Below are positions 8,025-64,000 of a DNA stretch of 64,000 nt, one piece after another. The notes beneath the pieces were generated by a model that was not told the DNA's origin, did no database searches, and was given only the letters and a program-made list of their open reading frames with translations. A program made the position numbers and the translations under genes. The stretch spans positions 124,001 through 188,000 of the forward strand of contig JAPUDO010000046.1 in the NCBI GenBank assembly GCA_027493055.1. The letters are read 5' to 3'. Source of the stretch: Niabella sp. Lineage in GTDB: Bacteria > Bacteroidota > Bacteroidia > Chitinophagales > Chitinophagaceae. Numbering within the stretch: the first letter of the stretch is position 1; every line of letters begins with the position of its first letter.

Positions 8025-9920
8025 TTAATCAGGTTTCTTACCGTCAAGGAAACTGTTGATCGTATTGATCTGACCCTGGTTCTGATCGTCAGAAGAGACT
8101 TCAAACTTGCTATAGTAACTTTCTATATGCGAAGTATTATTTTTCAGTTCCATATTGCGCCTGATATAAGCAGGAACATTTTCGAATTCATCCGTAGGAT
8201 CGTTAGAGTTAGCATTAAAAGACAGGTTACGTAATTTCTGGATCCGTTCTAATTGCCTGCGCTTCTGCATCTCTTCTTCCTGGTAAGCCTCTGTTAGGTC
8301 ATCAATACCCGGCTCCTCTTTTTCTACGGAAGGAAAACTGATCGATGTTCTCTTTGCTTCAACGGTCTCGGGTTTCTCGTACACAGAAAACGGCTCCTGC
8401 GGCTGCGGCCCGGCAGGTGTTTGTTTTTGCTCAGTTACAGGCTCTTCTTTAGTTTCTGCATATATATTGGCAGGCTTTGATAAGTAGCTTCTGGGCTCCT
8501 GTTTTACTTCTTCCTGTATCATCTCTGCTACCTTATTTTCATGCTGCTCAATAATACGCTCCCCGGGAACTGCAGGTGAATGAAACAGGCTTGCATCAGC
8601 ATCGGCAGCTGTTACCTCTTTTTCGATATGCTCCACATCCTTTACAAATTTCAGATCCTCACTATTTGCGCTCAGGAAAAAATGCTGATCCCTGTCTTCA
8701 TTTACTACATCTTCAACAACAGGCATAGGCACATCCACGAAAGGAAAATCTTCTACCAGCCTGGGCGCCATCGGATCGGGTTTCAGTTCTATAGGCACAG
8801 GTGCTTCCACAACAGGAGCGGATGCTTCAGGCTTAACTTCGGCCAAAGGCTGTGCAGGAGCTGCCGGCTGCTGATGGTTATCATTTTTCAGCGTCATTAC
8901 AATTTTCCCTTCAGCCACTTCTTCCTTTTTCAATACCGGTTTAACAAAGGGATCCTTATTCTCAAACCCGGTAGCAATAAGGGTTATACCAATCTGATCG
9001 CCCAATGATTCATCATATCCCAGTCCCAGTATCACATCTGTATTATCACCGGCATGGCTTAACAGGTAAGCCTGGATGATTTCTACCTCATCCATAGTAA
9101 ATTCATGCTCCCCTTCGGCGGAGTTGATATTGATAAGGATCCATTTGGCACCTTTAATATCATTATCATTTAATAGCGGCGAGTTCAATGCTTCTTCTAT
9201 AGCCTGCTGCGCACGGTCTTCTCCCCTTGCTGCTGCATTTCCCAGAATAGCCCTTCCGCCATTTTTCATTACAGTGCATACATCTGCAAAGTCTACATTT
9301 ATCTGGCCGGTAGAATTGATCACATCTGTGATACATTTTGCGGCAGTAGCTAATACATTATCCGCTTTTTCAAATGCCTCACGCATTTTAAGATTACCAT
9401 ACTGGTGGCGCAATTTGTCATTGCTGATCACCAGCAGCGTATCTACATATTGCTTTAACTGGCTGATCCCTTCTTCTGCCTGCTGCTGACGCTTTTTACC
9501 TTCATAAGCAAAAGGAGTAGTTACTATACCCACCGTTAATACACCCAGGTCTTTACAGATCTTAGCAATGATTGGAGCGCCCCCGGTACCGGTTCCACCG
9601 CCCATACCGGCAGTAATAAAGGCCATCTTGGTATTTACTTCCAGTATCTTCCGTATTTCTTCCAAAGATTCTACGGTAGCCTGGCGGCCGATCTCGGGGT
9701 TAGCACCTGCGCCCAAACCGGACGTTAACTGCGGTCCTAACTGTATTTTGTTGGGAATTTTACTGTTGGCAATAGCCTGGGCATCAGTATTGCAAATAAT
9801 AAAATTCACACCTTCTATATCCTGGTTGAACATGTGGTTTACGGCATTGCCGCCACCGCCACCTACACCTATTACTTTCAGGATAGATGATTGCTCACTT
9901 GGTAAATCAAATTGAATCAT
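8025..9920 (-). CDS. ftsZ: Cell division protein FtsZ
   Basis: This tubulin-like GTPase polymerises into the Z-ring. The N-terminal 320 residues hold the GTPase core, with the tubulin signature GGGTGTGGAP at about 106-115 and NVDFADV near 208. The protein has 631 residues, far above the roughly 380-400 of E. coli FtsZ. The excess is a long acidic, Pro/Glu-rich linker (about 345-600) ending in NTINSFLDGKKPD, which resembles the Bacteroidota C-terminal peptide (NSFLHDN-like) thought to bind FtsA. It is the last gene of the cluster, separated from ftsA by about 210 bp that contain a hairpin element, so it may have its own promoter. Confidence 0.98.
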   Translation of the reverse strand: MIQFDLPSEQSSILKVIGVGGGGGNAVNHMFNQDIEGVNFIICNTDAQAIANSKIPNKIQLGPQLTSGLGAGANPEIGRQATVESLEEIRKILEVNTKMAFITAGMGGGTGTGGAPIIAKICKDLGVLTVGIVTTPFAYEGKKRQQQAEEGISQLKQYVDTLLVISNDKLRHQYGNLKMREAFEKADNVLATAAKCITDVINSTGQINVDFADVCTVMKNGGRAILGNAAARGEDRAQQAIEEALNSPLLNDNDIKGAKWILININSAEGEHEFTMDEVEIIQAYLLSHAGDNTDVILGLGYDESLGDQIGITLIATGFENKDPFVKPVLKKEEVAEGKIVMTLKNDNHQQPAAPAQPLAEVKPEASAPVVEAPVPIELKPDPMAPRLVEDFPFVDVPMPVVEDVVNEDRDQHFFLSANSEDLKFVKDVEHIEKEVTAADADASLFHSPAVPGERIIEQHENKVAEMIQEEVKQEPRSYLSKPANIYAETKEEPVTEQKQTPAGPQPQEPFSVYEKPETVEAKRTSISFPSVEKEEPGIDDLTEAYQEEEMQKRRQLERIQKLRNLSFNANSNDPTDEFENVPAYIRRNMELKNNTSHIESYYSKFEVSSDDQNQGQINTINSFLDGKKPD

Positions 9921-51811: not shown

Positions 51812-53749
51812 GTGCGGCCCCACACGTCTATAATTACGGTATTATTCATTACTTTTTTTTACTGTGCCTATAGCCAGACAAAAACCGCAGACAGCCTGCT
51901 GACGCGCATTCATGCTACAACTACACCAAAAGAAAGATTAGCTGCTATACTGGCTTTTTGTGCCGAATATCAAAACGTTAACCGCGACACCTTGGATGAA
52001 TATGCGAAAGAAGCAGAGAGGCTGGCTGATCAATACGGCGATAAAAAACAAAAAGATCTTTCGAAAATAGCCATAGCTAACAGCTATCACCGTTGGAACT
52101 GGATAGACAGTTCCATCATGTTCATCGATCCCGTAATTAAAAGCAACCATGTTGACAACCCCGGCGAGCGCGATATTTATTTTAATGCATCCCGGCAAAA
52201 AGCAATGTACCTGGGAGGAAAGGATAAAATGGCGGAAGCATTGGATATACTTTACAAAATAACCGGTGAAGCCGAAAAACTGATGGACACCGTCATTTAC
52301 ACTACCAATATTAATACCATTGGATCCATAGCTTTGGCAAGAAAAGCGCCATCCGTATCCATGAAATGGTTGAGGCAGGCGCTTTCCTGGCTGACTACCT
52401 CCGAAAAGTATGATAAAGTAAAAGCAGCTATATATGCCAATATGAGCGAGGCGTATAAGCTAACAGGTAAAATTGACAGCGCCATTTTCGCCAGCACAAA
52501 GGCCATTGAGCTTTACCGGAAAACACAATTACTAAACGGACTGGCCATTACTTATCAGCGCCAGGCCGATATTTATAAAGATGCAAAACAGTATGGTAAA
52601 GCAGAAGCCGCATTGAAAGAAATGATCAGGATACGGAGTCTGCTGAATGATGGCTCCATGTATATAGACGACAACCTTGCATTAGTTAATTTTTACCTGG
52701 CCACCCGGCAATTTGACAGCGCAATCGCTTTATGCAAACGCAATCTTGTTTGGGGAGATATATATACCCAAAACAAGGGAAGCGGAACAACGCTAACGAA
52801 CACACCAGCCTTCAGAATATCTTTTTACCAGGCCCTGGCCAAAAGCTACCTGGCTAAGAAAGATTATGCATTGTACGCCCAAACGCTGGAAGCAATTATC
52901 AGTAATAAAGACTCCTTGAACACATTACAGCAGGAACAAGCCATTGCCGATATACAAACAAAATACGATGTTCAGAAAAAAGAGATCACCATTGTGCAGC
53001 AGCAACTGGATATTTCTAAAAAAAATACGCAGCTAATCTTATATAGCAGCCTTGCAATACTGATTTTGATGAGCGGCATGATCTATTTTATCAATTTCAG
53101 AAAAAAACAAAAGCTAAAGGCAGAAAAAGCCGTGCAGGATGCCGAAGAGAAAGAAAGGAAACGGATTGCCGCTGATCTGCACGATAATCTTGGTGTACAG
53201 GCCAACGCTATCTTATATACCAGTGAGCTGTTAAAGCAGGAAGAAGGCGCTAACAATGAGCTTACGGACAACCTGAATGATACGGCTAAAGATATGCTCT
53301 TTTTTTTGAGAGAAACTTTATGGGCCTTAAAAACAGCCGACACTACAGCTGCCGGCCTTTGGGTGCGCGTTATTAACTTTATAAGCCAGATGAGGAGGAA
53401 CTATAAGCATATTGCTTTTACCACATCAGGCATTGCTCCCGAAACGCTTTCCATACCTTCTGCAAAAGCGCTGAATATTTTAATGATCGTTCAGGAGGCG
53501 GTTAATAACGCTATAAAGCACAGCCGCGCTGAAAACACAGAAGTGAAGACAACCATTACAGATAAAGAATGGACCATTACCATCCGCGATAACGGCAAAG
53601 GGTTTCTTGTACAGGAAGTGCAGGATAAAGAGGATAGCCACGGGCTCCTCAATATGCAGCAACGCGCACGCGCTTCTCAAATCGCCATAGACATAAAAAG
53701 CAGCGAAGATGACGGAACGGAAATTACCTTAGGCGTACCCCTGGCATAG
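51812..53749 (+). CDS. TPR-containing sensor histidine kinase (NarX/DesK-type)
   Basis: The 645-residue protein begins at GTG 51812 with a signal peptide (SIITVLFITFFYCAYSQ). A periplasmic region of about 370 residues contains TPR-like helices (YANMSEAYKLTGKIDSAIF, ALAKSYLAKKDYALYAQTL). A membrane helix (LILYSSLAILILMSGMIYFI, about 408-427) follows. A HisKA_3 phospho-acceptor helix, ERKRIAADLHDNLGVQANAI with His at about 457, leads to a HATPase_c domain with VQEAVNNAIKHS, IRDNGKGF and GLLNMQQRA. It should phosphorylate the response regulator encoded 62 bp downstream. The input signal is unknown. Confidence 0.92.
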   Translation: MRPHTSIITVLFITFFYCAYSQTKTADSLLTRIHATTTPKERLAAILAFCAEYQNVNRDTLDEYAKEAERLADQYGDKKQKDLSKIAIANSYHRWNWIDSSIMFIDPVIKSNHVDNPGERDIYFNASRQKAMYLGGKDKMAEALDILYKITGEAEKLMDTVIYTTNINTIGSIALARKAPSVSMKWLRQALSWLTTSEKYDKVKAAIYANMSEAYKLTGKIDSAIFASTKAIELYRKTQLLNGLAITYQRQADIYKDAKQYGKAEAALKEMIRIRSLLNDGSMYIDDNLALVNFYLATRQFDSAIALCKRNLVWGDIYTQNKGSGTTLTNTPAFRISFYQALAKSYLAKKDYALYAQTLEAIISNKDSLNTLQQEQAIADIQTKYDVQKKEITIVQQQLDISKKNTQLILYSSLAILILMSGMIYFINFRKKQKLKAEKAVQDAEEKERKRIAADLHDNLGVQANAILYTSELLKQEEGANNELTDNLNDTAKDMLFFLRETLWALKTADTTAAGLWVRVINFISQMRRNYKHIAFTTSGIAPETLSIPSAKALNILMIVQEAVNNAIKHSRAENTEVKTTITDKEWTITIRDNGKGFLVQEVQDKEDSHGLLNMQQRARASQIAIDIKSSEDDGTEITLGVPLA

Positions 53750-53811
53750 ATTATCCAAATGGATTATTGATATACCGGCTTTTTATTTTCAGCTTTGAAT
53801 AAAAACAAACC

Positions 53812-54477
53812 ATGATCAGAATTGCTATTGTTGACGATAAAATAACTAACCGCCGCATAGTGGCAGATAAACTATCCCGGCACCCTGTTTTTACCATCCT
53901 GTTCCAGGCCTCGGACGGGGAAGATTTCCTTTCCCGGATGAAAGATTGCAGGGAAGACCAACAACCCCATATTGTTCTGATGGATATTGAAATGCCCAAT
54001 GTAAACGGAATTACAGCCATTGCTACAGCATCATCGCTTTACCCCGAGATAAGATTTGTGGTGCTTACTATTTTTGATGATGAGGACAAAATTTTCAACG
54101 CTATCAAAGCAGGCGCCTGTGGTTATTTATTAAAGGAGGAAAGCGGACCTGTTATTGCAGATATGCTTACCAATCTTTGGGAAAGCGGTGCCGGCCCCAT
54201 ATCGCCCAGTATTGCTTATAAAATATTACAGATGGTACAAGCCCCGCTGGCGCCCGCTTCTGCTTTAAATAACAGCACTGAAATATTTCATCTTTCAGAA
54301 AGAGAGAAACAGATACTGGAAATGCTGAGCCAGGGATTTGAGTATAAAGATATTGGCAATAAATTATTCATCAGCGCTAATACAGTAAAAAAGCACTGTA
54401 TCAATATATACCAGAAACTGCACGTTAACAGCCGCGCCCAGGCCTTAAGAATAGCCTATACCAAAGGTCTGATTTAG
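53812..54477 (+). CDS. NarL/FixJ-family response regulator
   Basis: The 221-residue regulator has a receiver domain (about 1-125) with acidic pocket VDDK, phospho-acceptor D58 in IVLMDIEMPNVNG, T/S in VVLTIFDDE and Lys in YLLKEES. A LuxR-type helix-turn-helix (LSEREKQILEMLSQGFEYKD, IGNKLFISANTVKKHCINI, about 157-205) follows. It forms a two-component pair with the kinase just upstream. The next locus downstream may or may not be a target. Confidence 0.95.
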   Translation: MIRIAIVDDKITNRRIVADKLSRHPVFTILFQASDGEDFLSRMKDCREDQQPHIVLMDIEMPNVNGITAIATASSLYPEIRFVVLTIFDDEDKIFNAIKAGACGYLLKEESGPVIADMLTNLWESGAGPISPSIAYKILQMVQAPLAPASALNNSTEIFHLSEREKQILEMLSQGFEYKDIGNKLFISANTVKKHCINIYQKLHVNSRAQALRIAYTKGLI

Positions 54478-54562
54478 TAGGCCCCTTATAATGTAATTTC
54501 TTATACGCCCGGATTTTTCAGGAAGCGTTATTTCAAAACAGTATCTCATAATAAATAATTAG

Positions 54563-54603
54563 TCTACTAATTTAGTAGAATATTAAAATTTACTATATAT
54601 TCG
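54563..54603 (+). promoter_or_regulatory. Operator site 1 and promoter of the TSUP gene
   Basis: TCTACTAATTTAGTAGA (54563-54579) is a 17-bp palindrome preceded by TTAG. Its right arm lies at the -33 position of TATATTCG (54596-54603), a one-mismatch TAnnTTTG. The site belongs to a five-copy family with TCTAC-N7-GTAGA. Confidence 0.75.
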
Positions 54604-54639
54604 CAAACAATTTTAAAAGTGCACAGCACATATATTGAT

Positions 54640-55964: not shown

Positions 55965-56004
55965 TCTACAAATATTGTAGACTAATAAAATAGTGTTATA
56001 TTTG
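55965..56004 (+). promoter_or_regulatory. Operator site 2 and promoter of the SAM-riboswitch transcript
   Basis: TCTACAAATATTGTAGA (55965-55981) followed by CTAATA. The TTG inside the right arm (55975-55977) is followed after 19 bp by TATATTTG (55997-56004), a full consensus promoter, so the operator covers the -33 element. The 5' end of the transcript would fall about 15 bp before the riboswitch. Confidence 0.8.
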
Positions 56005-56022: not shown

Positions 56023-56140
56023 TTCTTATCAAGAAAGGCTGAGGGTAATGGCCCAATGAAGCCTTGGCAACCTCTTTATAAATCTTTTATAAAAAAGGTG
56101 CCAAATCCATCCCATATATTATTTTGGGGCAGATAAGTCA
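56023..56140 (+). ncRNA. SAM-I (S-box) riboswitch
   Basis: The S-box consensus is present in order: CTTATCAAGA (P1 and start of P2), GGCTGAGGG, TGGCCCAATGAAGCC, GGCAACC, a variable P3/P4 region, GGTGCCAAATCC, GGGGCAGATAAG (P1 closing strand). It binds S-adenosylmethionine. A terminator hairpin follows 35 bp later, so SAM should switch transcription of the downstream gene off. Confidence 0.96.
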
Positions 56141-57491: not shown

Positions 57492-57537
57492 TATTAGTCT
57501 ACTTTTTTGGTAGACTAATATTTACTGCTTATGTTTG
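57492..57537 (+). promoter_or_regulatory. Operator site 3 and promoter of the PhyH/SDR transcript
   Basis: TATTAGTCTAC (57492-57502) and GTAGACTAATA (57510-57520) are exact 11-bp inverted arms around TTTTTTG. TTG (57507-57509) and TATGTTTG (57530-57537) are 20 bp apart, a full consensus promoter with the operator covering -33. Transcription should begin near 57544, giving a leader of about 180 nt. Confidence 0.82.
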
Positions 57538-57559: not shown

Positions 57560-57643
57560 GTGATACCGTCAGTGACATATAATACACTCCCCACCTCAAA
57601 GCATGACAATGCAAGCGTAATCGTCATGTGCTGTTGTTGCTGA
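57560..57643 (+). CDS. Candidate leader ORF ending in four cysteines (MCCCC-stop)
   Basis: The leader contains ATG-TGC-TGT-TGT-TGC-TGA at 57626-57643. In the same frame a GTG at 57560 (another at 57572) would give a 27-residue peptide, beginning MIPSVTYNTLPTSKHD and ending VIVMCCCC. ATGAC (57603-57607) can pair with GTCAT (57623-57627), so the Cys codons lie at the 3' edge of a hairpin. Four consecutive Cys codons are very unlikely by chance in a cysteine-poor genome, and a second poly-Cys leader precedes susC. I infer a cysteine-sensing leader peptide; which start codon is used is unknown. Confidence 0.5.
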   Translation: MIPSVTYNTLPTSKHDNASVIVMCCCC

Positions 57644-57726: not shown

Positions 57727-58593
57727 ATGAGTAACGCTACACAACAATTCTATTTTAATGATCAGGTTACACAACTGCACCTAACGCATCTGCAAAAACA
57801 TGGAGTTTTGCATTTTAAGCAATTCGTATCCTTCCACACTGTAAAAGAGTTTTTATATGAGATCAGCTCAGTTGAAAAGTATCTTTTAAGAAAAGAAATA
57901 ACAGTGGTAAATGGTATCCCCCTTAAATTCGGAAATGATGTGAACGGTTCACAGCTTATCCAGCGCATTGCTTTTGCATCTCAATACAGTAGTGTGCTAA
58001 ATAATTTCTTAAAGAGCGACCGCGTACAGCAATTGGCTAAACTGCTGGCCCCCTTTGAAGGCCGCATAGGTGAATCAGAGAAAGACGGCCTTGTGATAAA
58101 CCACTACCTGAACACAGAAGACAGCTCTTTCACAAGATTAGGATGGCATACAGACAGTCCCAGGGATCTGTTCCTAGGATCAAGGATCAAACCCATGCTG
58201 AACGTAGGGCTGCACCTAGATGATTGCCCCCAAAGCAATGGCGGACTAAGGGTTTTGGCAGGAACGCACAATAAAGGACTGCTTACTCTTTTCTTTAAAA
58301 AGAAATATTTTATAGATCACAAACCAGATAAAAAAGAAACAGGGCTTGACATTGAAGCCGGGGATCTTACCATACATGACGGGCGCCTCTGGCACCGGGT
58401 AGAGCAATCTCCTTTTATTGGAGAAGAAAGCAGACGGCGCGTAATGTATATCCCCGTGGTAACCGGAGCTTACCAGCCCAAAAGCGAAAGAAGCAGCACA
58501 CCCTTTTACCATAAGCTGGCGACTTTGGCATCACCAAAGCCTAAAAGAAAACCGGCCCCTGATTATGCCCCTCAATTAAATCCAACACTATGA
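57727..58593 (+). CDS. Phytanoyl-CoA dioxygenase (PhyH) family protein
   Basis: The 288-residue protein is a Fe(II)/2-oxoglutarate-dependent oxygenase by fold. LGWHTDSPRDLFLG (about 138-151) gives the His-x-Asp metal ligands, LNVGLHLDDCPQSNGGLRVL (about 158-177) follows, and LTIHDGRLWHRVEQSPFIGE (about 215-234) supplies the distal His. An arginine in EESRRRVMYIP is placed to bind 2-oxoglutarate. The substrate is unknown. Its promoter carries the sulfur-locus operator and its leader a poly-Cys ORF, which suggests a role in handling a sulfur compound or in sulfur limitation. It is followed after 60 bp by an SDR gene. Confidence 0.85.
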   Translation: MSNATQQFYFNDQVTQLHLTHLQKHGVLHFKQFVSFHTVKEFLYEISSVEKYLLRKEITVVNGIPLKFGNDVNGSQLIQRIAFASQYSSVLNNFLKSDRVQQLAKLLAPFEGRIGESEKDGLVINHYLNTEDSSFTRLGWHTDSPRDLFLGSRIKPMLNVGLHLDDCPQSNGGLRVLAGTHNKGLLTLFFKKKYFIDHKPDKKETGLDIEAGDLTIHDGRLWHRVEQSPFIGEESRRRVMYIPVVTGAYQPKSERSSTPFYHKLATLASPKPKRKPAPDYAPQLNPTL

Positions 58594-58653: not shown

Positions 58654-59475
58654 ATGTCATACGCACTTATTACCGGCGCTGCAAAAGGAATTGGCGCCGC
58701 TATTGCCATAGAGCTGGCGCAACAAAAACGGGGATTAATCCTTATTGATATTGATGAAAGGCAGCTATTGGATACGGCACAGTACATCAGGGATAAATAC
58801 CATGTGGATGTGGTAACTCTCATACAGGATCTGGCAACGCCGGATGCGGCCCAAAGGATATTTGAAAAAACAAAATGGTACCATGCCTATCTTGATATGG
58901 TGATAAACAATGCAGGGTATGGCCTCAATACGTCTTTTACAGAAACAGGAATTGAGGAGCAATTGAACATCATCGACGTAAATGTGAAAGCCCAGTTACG
59001 CATAGCACATGTATTCATTCCCGTTTTAAAAAAATTCCCACGTTCGTTCCTGCTGAATGTAGGCAGTACCACCTGTTATCAGTCAGTTCCCTACTTATCA
59101 GTATATGCGGCATCCAAAGCGTTTGTCATTTCATTTACACGCAGCCTGCGGTATGAGCTGAAAGAAACATCTATATCTGTTAGTTGTCTTATTCCGGGCG
59201 CTACAGATACAGCTTTCGTAACAAGAGCAGGTATGAAAGCATACACGCTAAAAACAGCTGAAAAATTTAATATGACACCACAGGCCGTTGCAAAAGCAGC
59301 AGTAAAAGGATTGCTGAAAGGCAAAGCTGAAATCGTTCCCGGCATTTCCAATAAGCTGAATGCCTTTATAACAAAGGTTGTTCCCAAAAGCCTTACAGAG
59401 CGGGTAGCAGCAAATATTTACAAGCCCAGGGAAGATGAACAGGTGATACAACAGGCCGTTGCTCCACAGTACTGA
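58654..59475 (+). CDS. Short-chain dehydrogenase/reductase
   Basis: The 273-residue classical SDR has the cofactor loop LITGAAKGIGAAIAIELAQQ (about 5-24), NNAGYG (about 86-91), a serine in LNVGSTTCYQSVP and the catalytic Y-x3-K in VYAASKAFVISFTRSL (about 150-165). D38 or so at the end of strand 2 (LIDIDERQ) suggests NAD(H) preference. The substrate is unknown. It is likely co-transcribed with the PhyH gene 60 bp upstream and is followed by tRNA-Cys. Confidence 0.9.
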   Translation: MSYALITGAAKGIGAAIAIELAQQKRGLILIDIDERQLLDTAQYIRDKYHVDVVTLIQDLATPDAAQRIFEKTKWYHAYLDMVINNAGYGLNTSFTETGIEEQLNIIDVNVKAQLRIAHVFIPVLKKFPRSFLLNVGSTTCYQSVPYLSVYAASKAFVISFTRSLRYELKETSISVSCLIPGATDTAFVTRAGMKAYTLKTAEKFNMTPQAVAKAAVKGLLKGKAEIVPGISNKLNAFITKVVPKSLTERVAANIYKPREDEQVIQQAVAPQY

Positions 59476-60788: not shown

Positions 60789-60806
60789 TGTAGAAAAATT
60801 TATTAG

Positions 60807-60848
60807 TCTACTATTTTAGTAGAGTATCAAAAATAATATATATCTTTA
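60807..60848 (+). promoter_or_regulatory. Operator site 4 in the divergent desaturase/yeiH promoter region
   Basis: TCTACTATTTTAGTAGA (60807-60823), preceded by TTAG. On the plus strand TATCTTTA (60841-60848), one mismatch to TAnnTTTG, stands about 21 bp after the TTAG of the right arm. On the minus strand TATTTTTG (60828-60835) lies just upstream of the operator, so the operator would sit at the start of the desaturase transcript. One site may control both genes. Confidence 0.75.
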
Positions 60849-62355: not shown

Positions 62356-62381
62356 TATTTTTGTCTACTAAATAAGTAGAC
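62356..62381 (+). promoter_or_regulatory. Operator site 5 and promoter before the poly-Cys leader and susC
   Basis: GTCTACT-AAATA-AGTAGAC (62363-62381) followed by TAATA. TATTTTTG (62356-62363) matches TAnnTTTG directly upstream, so transcription would start inside the operator. A second possible -7, TATATTTT, is at 62406-62413. The position relative to the promoter differs from sites 1-3, where the operator covers -33. Confidence 0.75.
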
Positions 62382-62426
62382 TAATAGCTGTTAACCACCA
62401 GCAGTTATATTTTAAACCCAATTAAA

Positions 62427-62546
62427 ATGAATAGCTCAACAAACGCTGTGTTTAAGTTGCAAAACTTCACTTCTGTAAGCCAGGTGGTAATACCTTCTCA
62501 AATGTTCTGTATGAACAGAACCACTACTACCTGTTGTTGCATATAA
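62427..62546 (+). CDS. 39-residue leader peptide ending in TTTTCCCI
   Basis: ATG 62427 opens a frame of 39 codons: MNSSTNAVFKLQNF, then SVSQVVIPSQMFCMNR, then TTTTCCCI and TAA. Cys codons are at 62508 and at 62532-62540 (TGT-TGT-TGC). It lies between the operator/promoter and susC, and 58 bp after its stop a 16-bp hairpin begins. GTTGCA, formed by the last Cys codons (62536-62541), can pair with TGCAAC at 62594-62599 just ahead of that hairpin. This is the layout of an amino-acid attenuator read by stalled ribosomes, with cysteine as the signal. Mycobacteria are known to use poly-Cys leader ORFs in this way; the function here is inferred. Confidence 0.65.
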   Translation: MNSSTNAVFKLQNFTSVSQVVIPSQMFCMNRTTTTCCCI

Positions 62547-62603
62547 GTACCCATTTTTCATGTTATCTGAATAAGCGATAAGCCTGTTATTGCTGCAACC
62601 GGC

Positions 62604-62671
62604 AAAAGGTATCCCATGGCCTGTCCACAATAATCGGTGGTTGGTTATAGTTGGGGGCCGGGGTGCCTTTT
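62604..62671 (+). terminator. Candidate attenuator hairpin between leader peptide and susC
   Basis: AAAAGGTATCCC-AT-GGCC (62604-62621) pairs with GGCCGGGGTGCCTTTT (62656-62671) through 16 base pairs, including two G-U pairs, with a two-base bulge. The strand ends in four U. The 34-base loop holds a small CCAC...GTGG hairpin. It lies about 112 bp before the susC start. Confidence 0.6.
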
Positions 62672-62782
62672 ACTGATTACACTTACAGAGATTTCCATAA
62701 TACACAAACCATCAAAAAACGAGTACAAAGTACCTGCGGCATTATTATGCCCGGAACGTACCGGATACAAACTACAAATAAA

Positions 62783-64000
62783 ATGCGCAAGAAGAGTCTT
62801 TTATATAGCATCACACTATACCTGCTGCTCCTTTTAACCGGCAGTGCGATCCATGCACAAAACCCCGCTACTATTAATTCTGTACTTGAAGGTACCGTGC
62901 TTGATGAAGTAACCAATGAGCCGCTTGATGGAGCTAACGTCATTATTGAAGGGGTAACCAATCAAACTACAACCAATTCCAAAGGACAGTTCATATTACG
63001 CACGGGACAGAAGTTCCCCTACAACATCATCATCACTTTTGTGGGGTACGAAAAGAAGATCGTGCTGGCAACAGGGTCGCCCGTTTCCGTAAGATTAAAA
63101 CCTATCAATAACAACCTGGATGATGTGGTAGTAGTAGGTTATGGAACCCAAAGAAAAACTGATGTTACCGGAGCCGTAAGCTCATTATCACAGAGCGCTA
63201 TCAGGCAGCCGCTGAGCTCATTTGATCAGGCGTTAAAAGGTGCCTCCACGGGCGTTCAGGTAACACAAACATCAGGACAACCTGGCGGAGGTGTCAGCAT
63301 CCGCATCAGGGGCGGATCCTCCATCCAGGGAGGTAATGAGCCGCTGTATGTTATAGATGGCTTCCCGGTATACAATAGCAGTAACTCGCCCGGTATAGCT
63401 TCCGGGGCCGTGGTAAATCCATTGGCAGGTATTAACCCGGCTGACATTGACAGGATAGATATTTTAAAAGACGCCGCGGCCACTGCTATTTATGGATCGC
63501 GTGGCGCAAATGGCGTAGTAATTATAACAACCAAAAAAGGAAGCCCCAGGAAAAGCGCCATCAGCTACGATGGGTCGTATGGTCAGCAAAGCGTGCAGAA
63601 AAAAATTGACGTGCTGAATGCAAAACAATTTGCGGTTCTAAGAAATGAAGTGCTGTACGATACCAAACCATCAGGCGGAAAATATCAATATTTAAGTGAA
63701 GCTGAGATAGCCGCATTAGGCGAAGGAACCAACTGGCAACAGGAGGCTTTCAGGAATGCTCTTGTACAAAGCCACCAGGTTTCTATTGCAGGGGGCAGCA
63801 GTAATACACAATACTTTATATCGGGAAGCTATAATAAACAGGAGGGAATTATTAAAAACACCGACTTTACAAGAATAGCTGTCAGGGCCAATATCAATGC
63901 CCGGCCTGTTAACAGGCTCACAGTAAGCACCAATATTACCGCAAGTAAAGCAGACGCAAATATTGCTCCATCAGGCATCATCGGCTCTTTATTAATCATG
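62783..64000 (+). CDS. SusC/RagA family TonB-linked outer membrane receptor, 3' end beyond window
   Basis: The 406 codons present show a signal peptide (LLYSITLYLLLLLTGSAIHA) and a CarboxypepD_reg-like domain (VLEGTVLDEVTNEPLDGANV, about 33-110). The SusC-type TonB box region is VVVVGYGTQRKTDVTGAVSS. The plug follows (QVTQTSGQPGGGVSIRIRGG, PLYVIDGFPV, DIDRILKDAAA-like segment, AIYGSRGANGVVIITTKKG), then the first barrel strands. Full-length members are about 1000 residues and pair with a SusD lipoprotein, expected just outside. It would import an oligomeric or bulky nutrient through the outer membrane. The operator and cysteine-type leader suggest that the substrate is a sulfur source, not a plain glycan. 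Confidence 0.95.
   Translation, partial: MRKKSLLYSITLYLLLLLTGSAIHAQNPATINSVLEGTVLDEVTNEPLDGANVIIEGVTNQTTTNSKGQFILRTGQKFPYNIIITFVGYEKKIVLATGSPVSVRLKPINNNLDDVVVVGYGTQRKTDVTGAVSSLSQSAIRQPLSSFDQALKGASTGVQVTQTSGQPGGGVSIRIRGGSSIQGGNEPLYVIDGFPVYNSSNSPGIASGAVVNPLAGINPADIDRIDILKDAAATAIYGSRGANGVVIITTKKGSPRKSAISYDGSYGQQSVQKKIDVLNAKQFAVLRNEVLYDTKPSGGKYQYLSEAEIAALGEGTNWQQEAFRNALVQSHQVSIAGGSSNTQYFISGSYNKQEGIIKNTDFTRIAVRANINARPVNRLTVSTNITASKADANIAPSGIIGSLLIM

Follow-up and report, generated by a model that had tools for sequence, protein, structure and literature searches.

A poly-cysteine leader ORF before a SusCD-arylsulfatase operon of Niabella sp. and a possible terminator-free mode of cysteine sensing

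The stretch of Niabella sp. DNA analyzed here (64,000 nucleotides, hereafter the window) carries, in front of a susC gene, a short open reading frame (ORF) with a run of cysteine codons at its 3' end. Sequence comparison demonstrates this ORF, its recurrence in other genomes, its association with sulfatase genes, a shared operator, three co-occurring RNA pieces, and a downstream hairpin. We consider it probable that the leader is translated and its Cys codons sense charged cysteine tRNA, so that the SusCD-arylsulfatase operon responds to cysteine shortage, under the control of the operator and with a putative switch formed by a strand of the 5'UTR. Cysteine sensing by the leader is well supported by the comparison, and a more specific reading is offered tentatively, at somewhat less than even confidence: a terminator-free cysteine attenuator of Bacteroidota, in which the 5'UTR strand would choose between GGUGG behind a stalled ribosome and the loop of the downstream hairpin, the contact spanning the leader ORF.

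The leader ORF and its recurrence before sulfatase-linked susC genes

A reading of the window from its letters alone (the sequence-only reading) had described a 39-codon ORF ending Thr4-Cys3-Ile-stop, with a further Cys earlier, placed between a promoter and susC. Both the ORF and its placement were confirmed, and the features concerned are as follows.

62356..62363, + strand: putative -7 promoter box TATTTTTG, found by eye and presumably of the Bacteroidota type
62363..62381, + strand: operator at the susC leader, GTCTACTAAATAAGTAGAC, a perfect palindrome that overlaps the presumed transcription start
62427..62546, + strand: poly-Cys leader ORF, 39 codons, MNSSTNAVFKLQNFTSVSQVVIPSQMFCMNRTTTTCCCI-stop, with the end T-T-T-T-C-C-C-I-stop
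62783..64000, + strand, continuing past the window: susC (P0001), with susD and two arylsulfatase genes behind it on the contig

The Cys codons of the run occupy positions 62532-62540, and the translation holds one further Cys earlier in the peptide. The putative -7 box and the palindrome lie on the 5' side of the ORF and the susC ATG (62783) on its 3' side. The promoter-like box at 62356-62363 and the ATG at 62427 (by eye), about 57 nt 3' of the presumed transcription start, speak tentatively against a leaderless start. Counts of the CCC-stop pattern across the genome (165 places, and 24 for the reversed pattern) say little because frame and context are ignored in them. As judged from the comparison of loci given below, the leader ORF is real and its Cys run is beyond chance.

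The recurrence of the leader was determined in a set of 100 susC loci, made up of 79 named loci, 20 stretches of relatives' DNA, and the locus of the window itself, and an ORF with at least three Cys in its last 8 residues was found within 900 nt upstream of susC at 24 of them. A locus was taken to have a sulfatase if such a gene lay at any distance downstream, on the same strand, within the available sequence. Dropping the nine loci with less than 2.5 kb downstream left 91, which comprised 20 with both leader and sulfatase, 15 with a sulfatase only, three with a leader only, and 53 with neither. Under a stricter rule (at least three Cys in the last 5 residues, within 600 nt upstream; 13 loci dropped) the leader was present at 19 of 34 sulfatase-linked susC loci vs. 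2 of 53 others (p = 3.5e-8), in the named genomes alone at 8 of 22 vs. 2 of 44 (p = 0.0015), and in the relatives plus the window at 11 of 12 vs. 0 of 9 (p = 3.4e-5), p-values which overstate the association because the loci are related and because both the profile used to search the named genomes (SusC with a leader already seen made up 10 of its 11 rows) and the relatives were picked after leaders had been seen. In the controls at the sulfatase-linked loci the next residue, Leu, reached 7 of 34, Cys on the antisense strand reached 2 of 34, and shuffles gave a mean of 0.23. The CCC-stop ORF is hereby found to be conserved before orthologous susC genes, with 15 of the 34 sulfatase-linked loci having no such leader.

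A narrower set of SusC (43 places found) yielded a leader with at least three Cys in the last 9 residues at 24 of 30 loci, three of the six misses being cut by the contig end. The two sets overlap, since nine of these 30 susC loci belong to genomes already sampled in the first set, and locus L246 repeats the leader of L117. Besides the window's relatives, the named carriers belong to Flavobacterium, Mucilaginibacter, Pedobacter, Niastella, and Larkinella, and the leader of the Chitinophagaceae genome G324 is that of Niastella caeni (L117). A leader without a sulfatase found downstream occurred in a Tannerella MAG and in Mucilaginibacter achroorhodeus. Outside close relatives the leader peptides have little in common except the terminal Cys run, which is written with TGT as well as TGC (105 and 43 times, respectively, over the final six codons of 36 leaders, a count that includes the codons of a wrong ORF at L067).

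A match in Gemmatimonadetes (L157) looks like chance. Five Flavobacterium leaders (L093, L094, L097, L100, and L101) end in ...MCxCC and have on their 3' side a hairpin with a CGGCAA-like loop (by eye), which is perhaps another class of leader structure.

The operator and the sulfur neighborhood of the operon

The susD gene and both arylsulfatase genes were located at about 5906-10693 of L061, on the same contig beyond the window. Both arylsulfatase genes gave Pfam Sulfatase matches with E-values below 1e-57 and contain, by eye, C-x-P-x-R, which we take to be the sulfatase motif. Sulfatase domains behind susCD, together with the association between leader and sulfatases, point to a role in sulfur supply. 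The window holds the following further features upstream of the susC leader.

54559..54583, + strand: third operator, before the gene at 54619
54619: gene with NAD-binding and TauE domains, behind the third operator; we take the NAD-binding domain to be siroheme-synthase-like
55965..55981, + strand: weak fifth operator-like palindrome TCTACAAATATTGTAGA, found by eye, before the SAM riboswitch
56023..56139, + strand: SAM riboswitch (Rfam), 5' of a Cys/Met-metabolism PLP enzyme gene (56290)
57494..57518, + strand: second operator, with the boxes TTTG (57506) and TATGTTTG (57530), found by eye and presumed to be promoter-like
57560..57643, + strand: second poly-Cys leader, with a GTG start and the end ...VIVMCCCC-stop, or with ATG 57626 and the peptide MCCCC
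57727..58593, + strand: PhyH-family gene behind the second leader, with an SDR gene next at 58654
60803..60827, + strand: fourth operator, between an FA_hydroxylase gene (- strand) and the YeiH/Cons_hypoth698 gene
60991, + strand: YeiH/Cons_hypoth698 gene, upstream of the leader and susC

With genes for YeiH/Cons_hypoth698, PhyH, SDR, a Cys/Met PLP enzyme, and NAD-binding/TauE domains upstream of it, the susC leader lies in what is largely a sulfur neighborhood. Rfam returned one SAM riboswitch and one tRNA in the window, and two SAM riboswitch matches, a tRNA, and one snoRNA match in a scan of 12 loci; the snoRNA match was below the gathering score and was judged to be chance.

The operators were searched for in the window's own genome using the pattern GTCTACT-N5-AGTAGAC plus flank. 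Among the matches listed were four palindromes with at most two mismatches in the genome, all of them inside the 64-kb window, and the weak palindrome TCTACAAATATTGTAGA was absent from the matches. One further place, with three mismatches, lies on another contig before a gene whose start resembles that of a TonB-linked receptor (by eye). The four operators plus the weak fifth mark a predicted local sulfur regulon. Directly 5' of the first operator of the sulfur cluster, at 51812-54477 of the window, are genes for a sensor kinase and a LuxR-type response regulator, a pair that is a possible candidate for the regulator of the cluster.

A related operator pattern, applied to 59 genomes of relatives, matched at least 35 places. 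Thirty-one operator loci were read, 30 from the search of the relatives and one from that of the own genome (two of the 31 lie in the own genome), and 15 of them had a Cys-rich leader; behind most of these 15 leaders TonB receptor, PhyH, or susC genes were seen by eye. A sixteenth operator-linked leader (L201) was judged spurious. Several operator loci show, by eye, TTTG and TAnnTTTG at promoter spacing, which we take to be promoter boxes.

The second leader of the window has its own operator and promoter-like boxes and precedes the PhyH-SDR gene pair. PhyH leaders in relatives end in CCCC (L210/L260), CCC (L216), or MCCR (L199), and a leader with at least three Cys in the last 9 residues was found at 13 of 30 PhyH loci, among which the matches far upstream at L269, L276, and L280 may be chance. 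The proposal of the sequence-only reading that cysteine is the effector, and that the leader has this role before susC, is thus backed by comparative data, namely the sulfatase-linked recurrence and the operator shared with sulfur genes.

A three-part RNA element and the alternatives to it

Comparison of the leaders revealed three pieces, a 5'UTR strand UUAACCACC, GGUGG in the ORF, and GGUGGUUGG in the downstream hairpin, of which UUAACCACC can pair alternatively with the GGUGG of the ORF or with GGUGGUUGG. Their positions in the window are as follows.

62390..62399, + strand: element 1, the 5'UTR strand GUUAACCACC, within a small predicted hairpin
62483..62487, + strand: element 2, GGUGG in the leader ORF, 16 codons 5' of the Cys run
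62600..62675, + strand: stable downstream hairpin, with element 3 in its apical part
62636..62644, + strand: element 3, GGUGGUUGG, with 10 pairs possible with element 1, three of them G-U

Among 34 distinct leaders, all three pieces were present in seven and none in 27 (p = 1.9e-7), element 2 accompanying elements 1 and 3 in all seven leaders that have them and occurring in 0 of the 27 others, a tally in which the pieces had been defined on the same leaders as were counted. The seven positive leaders include the window's and come from four genera; L067 and the duplicate L117 were omitted, and the variant L253 was counted among the 27. A search of 344 genomes with the 14-mer of piece 1 gave 21 places (six for the reversed pattern), eight of them beside an operator. 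Seven of these eight had a leader and both other pieces vs. 0 of 13 elsewhere, and three of the seven full-set places (L291, L293, and L303) were newly found. Of 12 loci chosen for the element, 11 have GGUGG, at a distance of 11-16 codons from the Cys run, and the arms of the distal hairpin were better than shuffles at 12 of 12 element loci (p at most 0.007).

The pairing between elements 1 and 3 was counted by script; six distal hairpins were also aligned automatically, but the 3' arms aligned badly and the alignment was left unused. The pairing is preserved through changes in L253 (A-U to U-A), L232, L257, L291, and L293, with a double change in L253 only, and each locus paired 5.17 of 6 positions with its own partner vs. 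4.83 of 6 with the partners of other loci. The covariation is thin because pieces 1 and 3 hardly vary. A looser pattern for these two pieces also matches places without a leader, and the pairing between them would not on its own preclude the downstream hairpin.

Two loci have an operator and the 5' element with no poly-Cys leader. In Dyadobacter luticola (L095, about 8780-8960) an operator-like site and the 5' element GTTAACCACC are followed by GGTGGTTAAC early in the next ORF, a periplasmic-binding-protein-like gene by eye, and at L301, around position 1500, the operator and the 5' element stand before a membrane-protein ORF (by eye).

As 27 of the 34 leaders have no three-part element, the element is not the sole device, and the leaders without it must use another one. 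This count is also in keeping with the most serious alternative, that translation of the leader sets Rho-dependent termination or coupling with no specific RNA switch involved. The second leader, only 83 nt from the PhyH gene and with no terminator seen by eye between the two, fits this explanation as well, as do the Cys-run leaders for which the available part of PMC1262725 finds no terminator conserved and proposes Rho. What counts against it is that the three-part element recurs, as does the distal hairpin, in some of the leaders, that of the window among them, and we regard it as possible but the less likely account.

Classical attenuation of the trp/his type, as put forward in the sequence-only reading, would rest on pairing of the Cys codons with GCAAC and on an intrinsic terminator, the 62604-62671 hairpin, that forms at high cysteine. 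The 16-bp stem which that reading described does exist, with 62604-62615 and 62618-62621 pairing with 62660-62671 and 62656-62659 and UUUU at its 3' end, and the fold of 62595-62680 (-35.9 kcal/mol) is stable and moderately beyond chance (z -2.91, 1 of 200 shuffles as good). The UUUU is, however, the end of the stem itself with no further U after it, and in the congener locus L077 the U-run sits inside a longer stem. A canonical terminator scan of the window's leader region, which covered loops of 3-8 only, found none. Of 35 leader regions (L067 left out), 12 have a terminator-like hairpin of up to 50 nt on the plus strand that surpasses shuffled sequence, but the one in the window had p = 0.85. 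The proposed pairing of the Cys codons stood only in part: GUUGC (62536-62540) with GCAAC (62595-62599) is indeed predicted, but at chance level (p = 0.46 against shuffled downstream sequence). Over 36 leaders this pairing gave a median p of 0.305, a combined p of 0.001, and p < 0.05 in six, the rows being related and one of the six (L067) being on the wrong ORF. This amounts to a weak overall tendency of the sort that classical attenuation would call for, and to that extent it counts against the preferred working. Nor was an antiterminator of comparable strength seen by eye in the predicted fold. The terminator architecture of the trp/his type was accordingly not upheld for the window, and this explanation appears unlikely.

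On the minus strand, 16 of 35 leader regions hold terminator-like hairpins better than those of shuffled sequence, and such hairpins, which would end antisense transcripts, hint at antisense RNAs. Antisense RNAs occur at Bacteroides polysaccharide loci. Minus-strand hairpins of this kind lie between leader and susC in relatives (e.g., L239, L244, L256, and L100) and, weakly, at about 62713-62775 of the window (p = 0.07). An antisense RNA as the main regulator, acting via these hairpins, is nevertheless improbable given the weakness of the signal in the window, the reading by eye of a few regions, which showed no clear promoter on the minus strand, and the Cys run, which an antisense RNA would leave unexplained.

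Still less credible is sensing of a metal (copper) by the nascent Cys-rich peptide, after the manner of CruR, a CXXC upstream ORF before the gene of a TonB-dependent receptor (PMC9426467, available part), since the Cys run of the window leader stands at the very C-terminus, neither a CXXC nor a RAPP motif is present, and the gene context (sulfatases, SAM riboswitch, TauE) is one of sulfur. That the leader ORF is a chance open frame, to which its 39 codons, the lack of a match in the NCBIfam scan of the peptide, and the weak and unconvincing matches in a tblastn search of relatives with the 39-residue peptide might lend some color, is very improbable in view of its recurrence, the controls, and the second poly-Cys leader in the same window.

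Proposed working and comparison with known systems

In the working of a cysteine-sensing leader with a 5'UTR-strand switch, which we prefer, the leader ORF would be translated and its terminal Cys codons would sense charged cysteine tRNA, with the sulfur-regulon operator at the promoter acting above the leader control. The susC-susD-arylsulfatase operon would serve the uptake and desulfation of sulfate esters. With ample cysteine, ribosomes would reach the stop codon and UUAACCACC would pair with GGUGGUUGG, a state in which the leader would be closed and susC expression low. With scarce cysteine, a ribosome would halt at the Cys run and leave GGUGG bare behind it; the exposed GGUGG would then capture the 5'UTR strand, the downstream element would be freed, and susC would be switched on. 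The controlled step may be transcription, by means of Rho and not of an intrinsic terminator, or the translation of susC.

If this holds true, translation of the leader would be read out via a long-range RNA contact over a sulfur-scavenging SusCD-sulfatase operon, which would provide a testable example of amino-acid sensing with no evident terminator. SusCD operons are usually seen as carbon-source systems tuned by glycan. Where such operons bear sulfatases and have a cysteine leader in front, a role in sulfur supply is suggested, and the poly-Cys leader is a sequence signature that may separate sulfur-supply from glycan-degrading SusCD operons. Similar leaders before many related Bacteroidota operons suggest that the lack of cysteine is sensed by stalled ribosomes.

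The published systems are compared here on the basis of the available parts of the sources cited. The trp/his attenuators share with the window ORF a run of effector codons in the leader and differ in their intrinsic terminator and in the pairing of effector codons with an antiterminator, neither of which was borne out for the window leader. In mycobacteria, leaderless poly-Cys short ORFs upstream of operons have been described as cysteine-responsive attenuators (Canestrari et al., 2020, via PMC9094748). They resemble the window's in having Cys codons in a short ORF before an operon, whereas the window leader belongs to Bacteroidota, is apparently not leaderless, and stands before SusCD-sulfatase or, in the second case, PhyH genes. 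The Bacteroidota leaders moreover differ from the mycobacterial ones in having a palindromic operator and, in a subset, the three-part RNA element. The Cys-run leaders before cys and cbs genes of Actinobacteria, for which Rho was suggested, are likewise characterized by runs of Cys codons near the stop and no conserved terminator; they precede cys operons and cbs in another phylum, and the available text describes no comparable RNA element for them (PMC1262725).

The uORFC-8-2 motif before cysS of Rhodobacterales combines, like the window's leader, an upstream ORF with tandem Cys codons and an RNA structure, but it has a terminal U run like that of an intrinsic terminator and two conserved Cys codons, and it precedes the gene of cysteinyl-tRNA synthetase (PMC8632094). 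CruR (DUF2946) shares with the window's leader the position of a Cys-containing upstream ORF before a TonB receptor gene and differs in the sensing of copper through CXXC, in the RAPP arrest motif, and in Rho-dependent termination (PMC9426467). For Flavobacterium psychrophilum there are clues for leader-peptide attenuation before amino-acid operons (PMC9723704). No cysteine leader in Bacteroidota was found in the literature covered (subscription papers, preprints, and supplements being outside its scope), and the consulted portions of the literature on the Actinobacteria, mycobacteria, Rhodobacterales, and F. psychrophilum leaders contain none before SusC or sulfatases. Leaders with Cys runs as such are already known from other bacteria.
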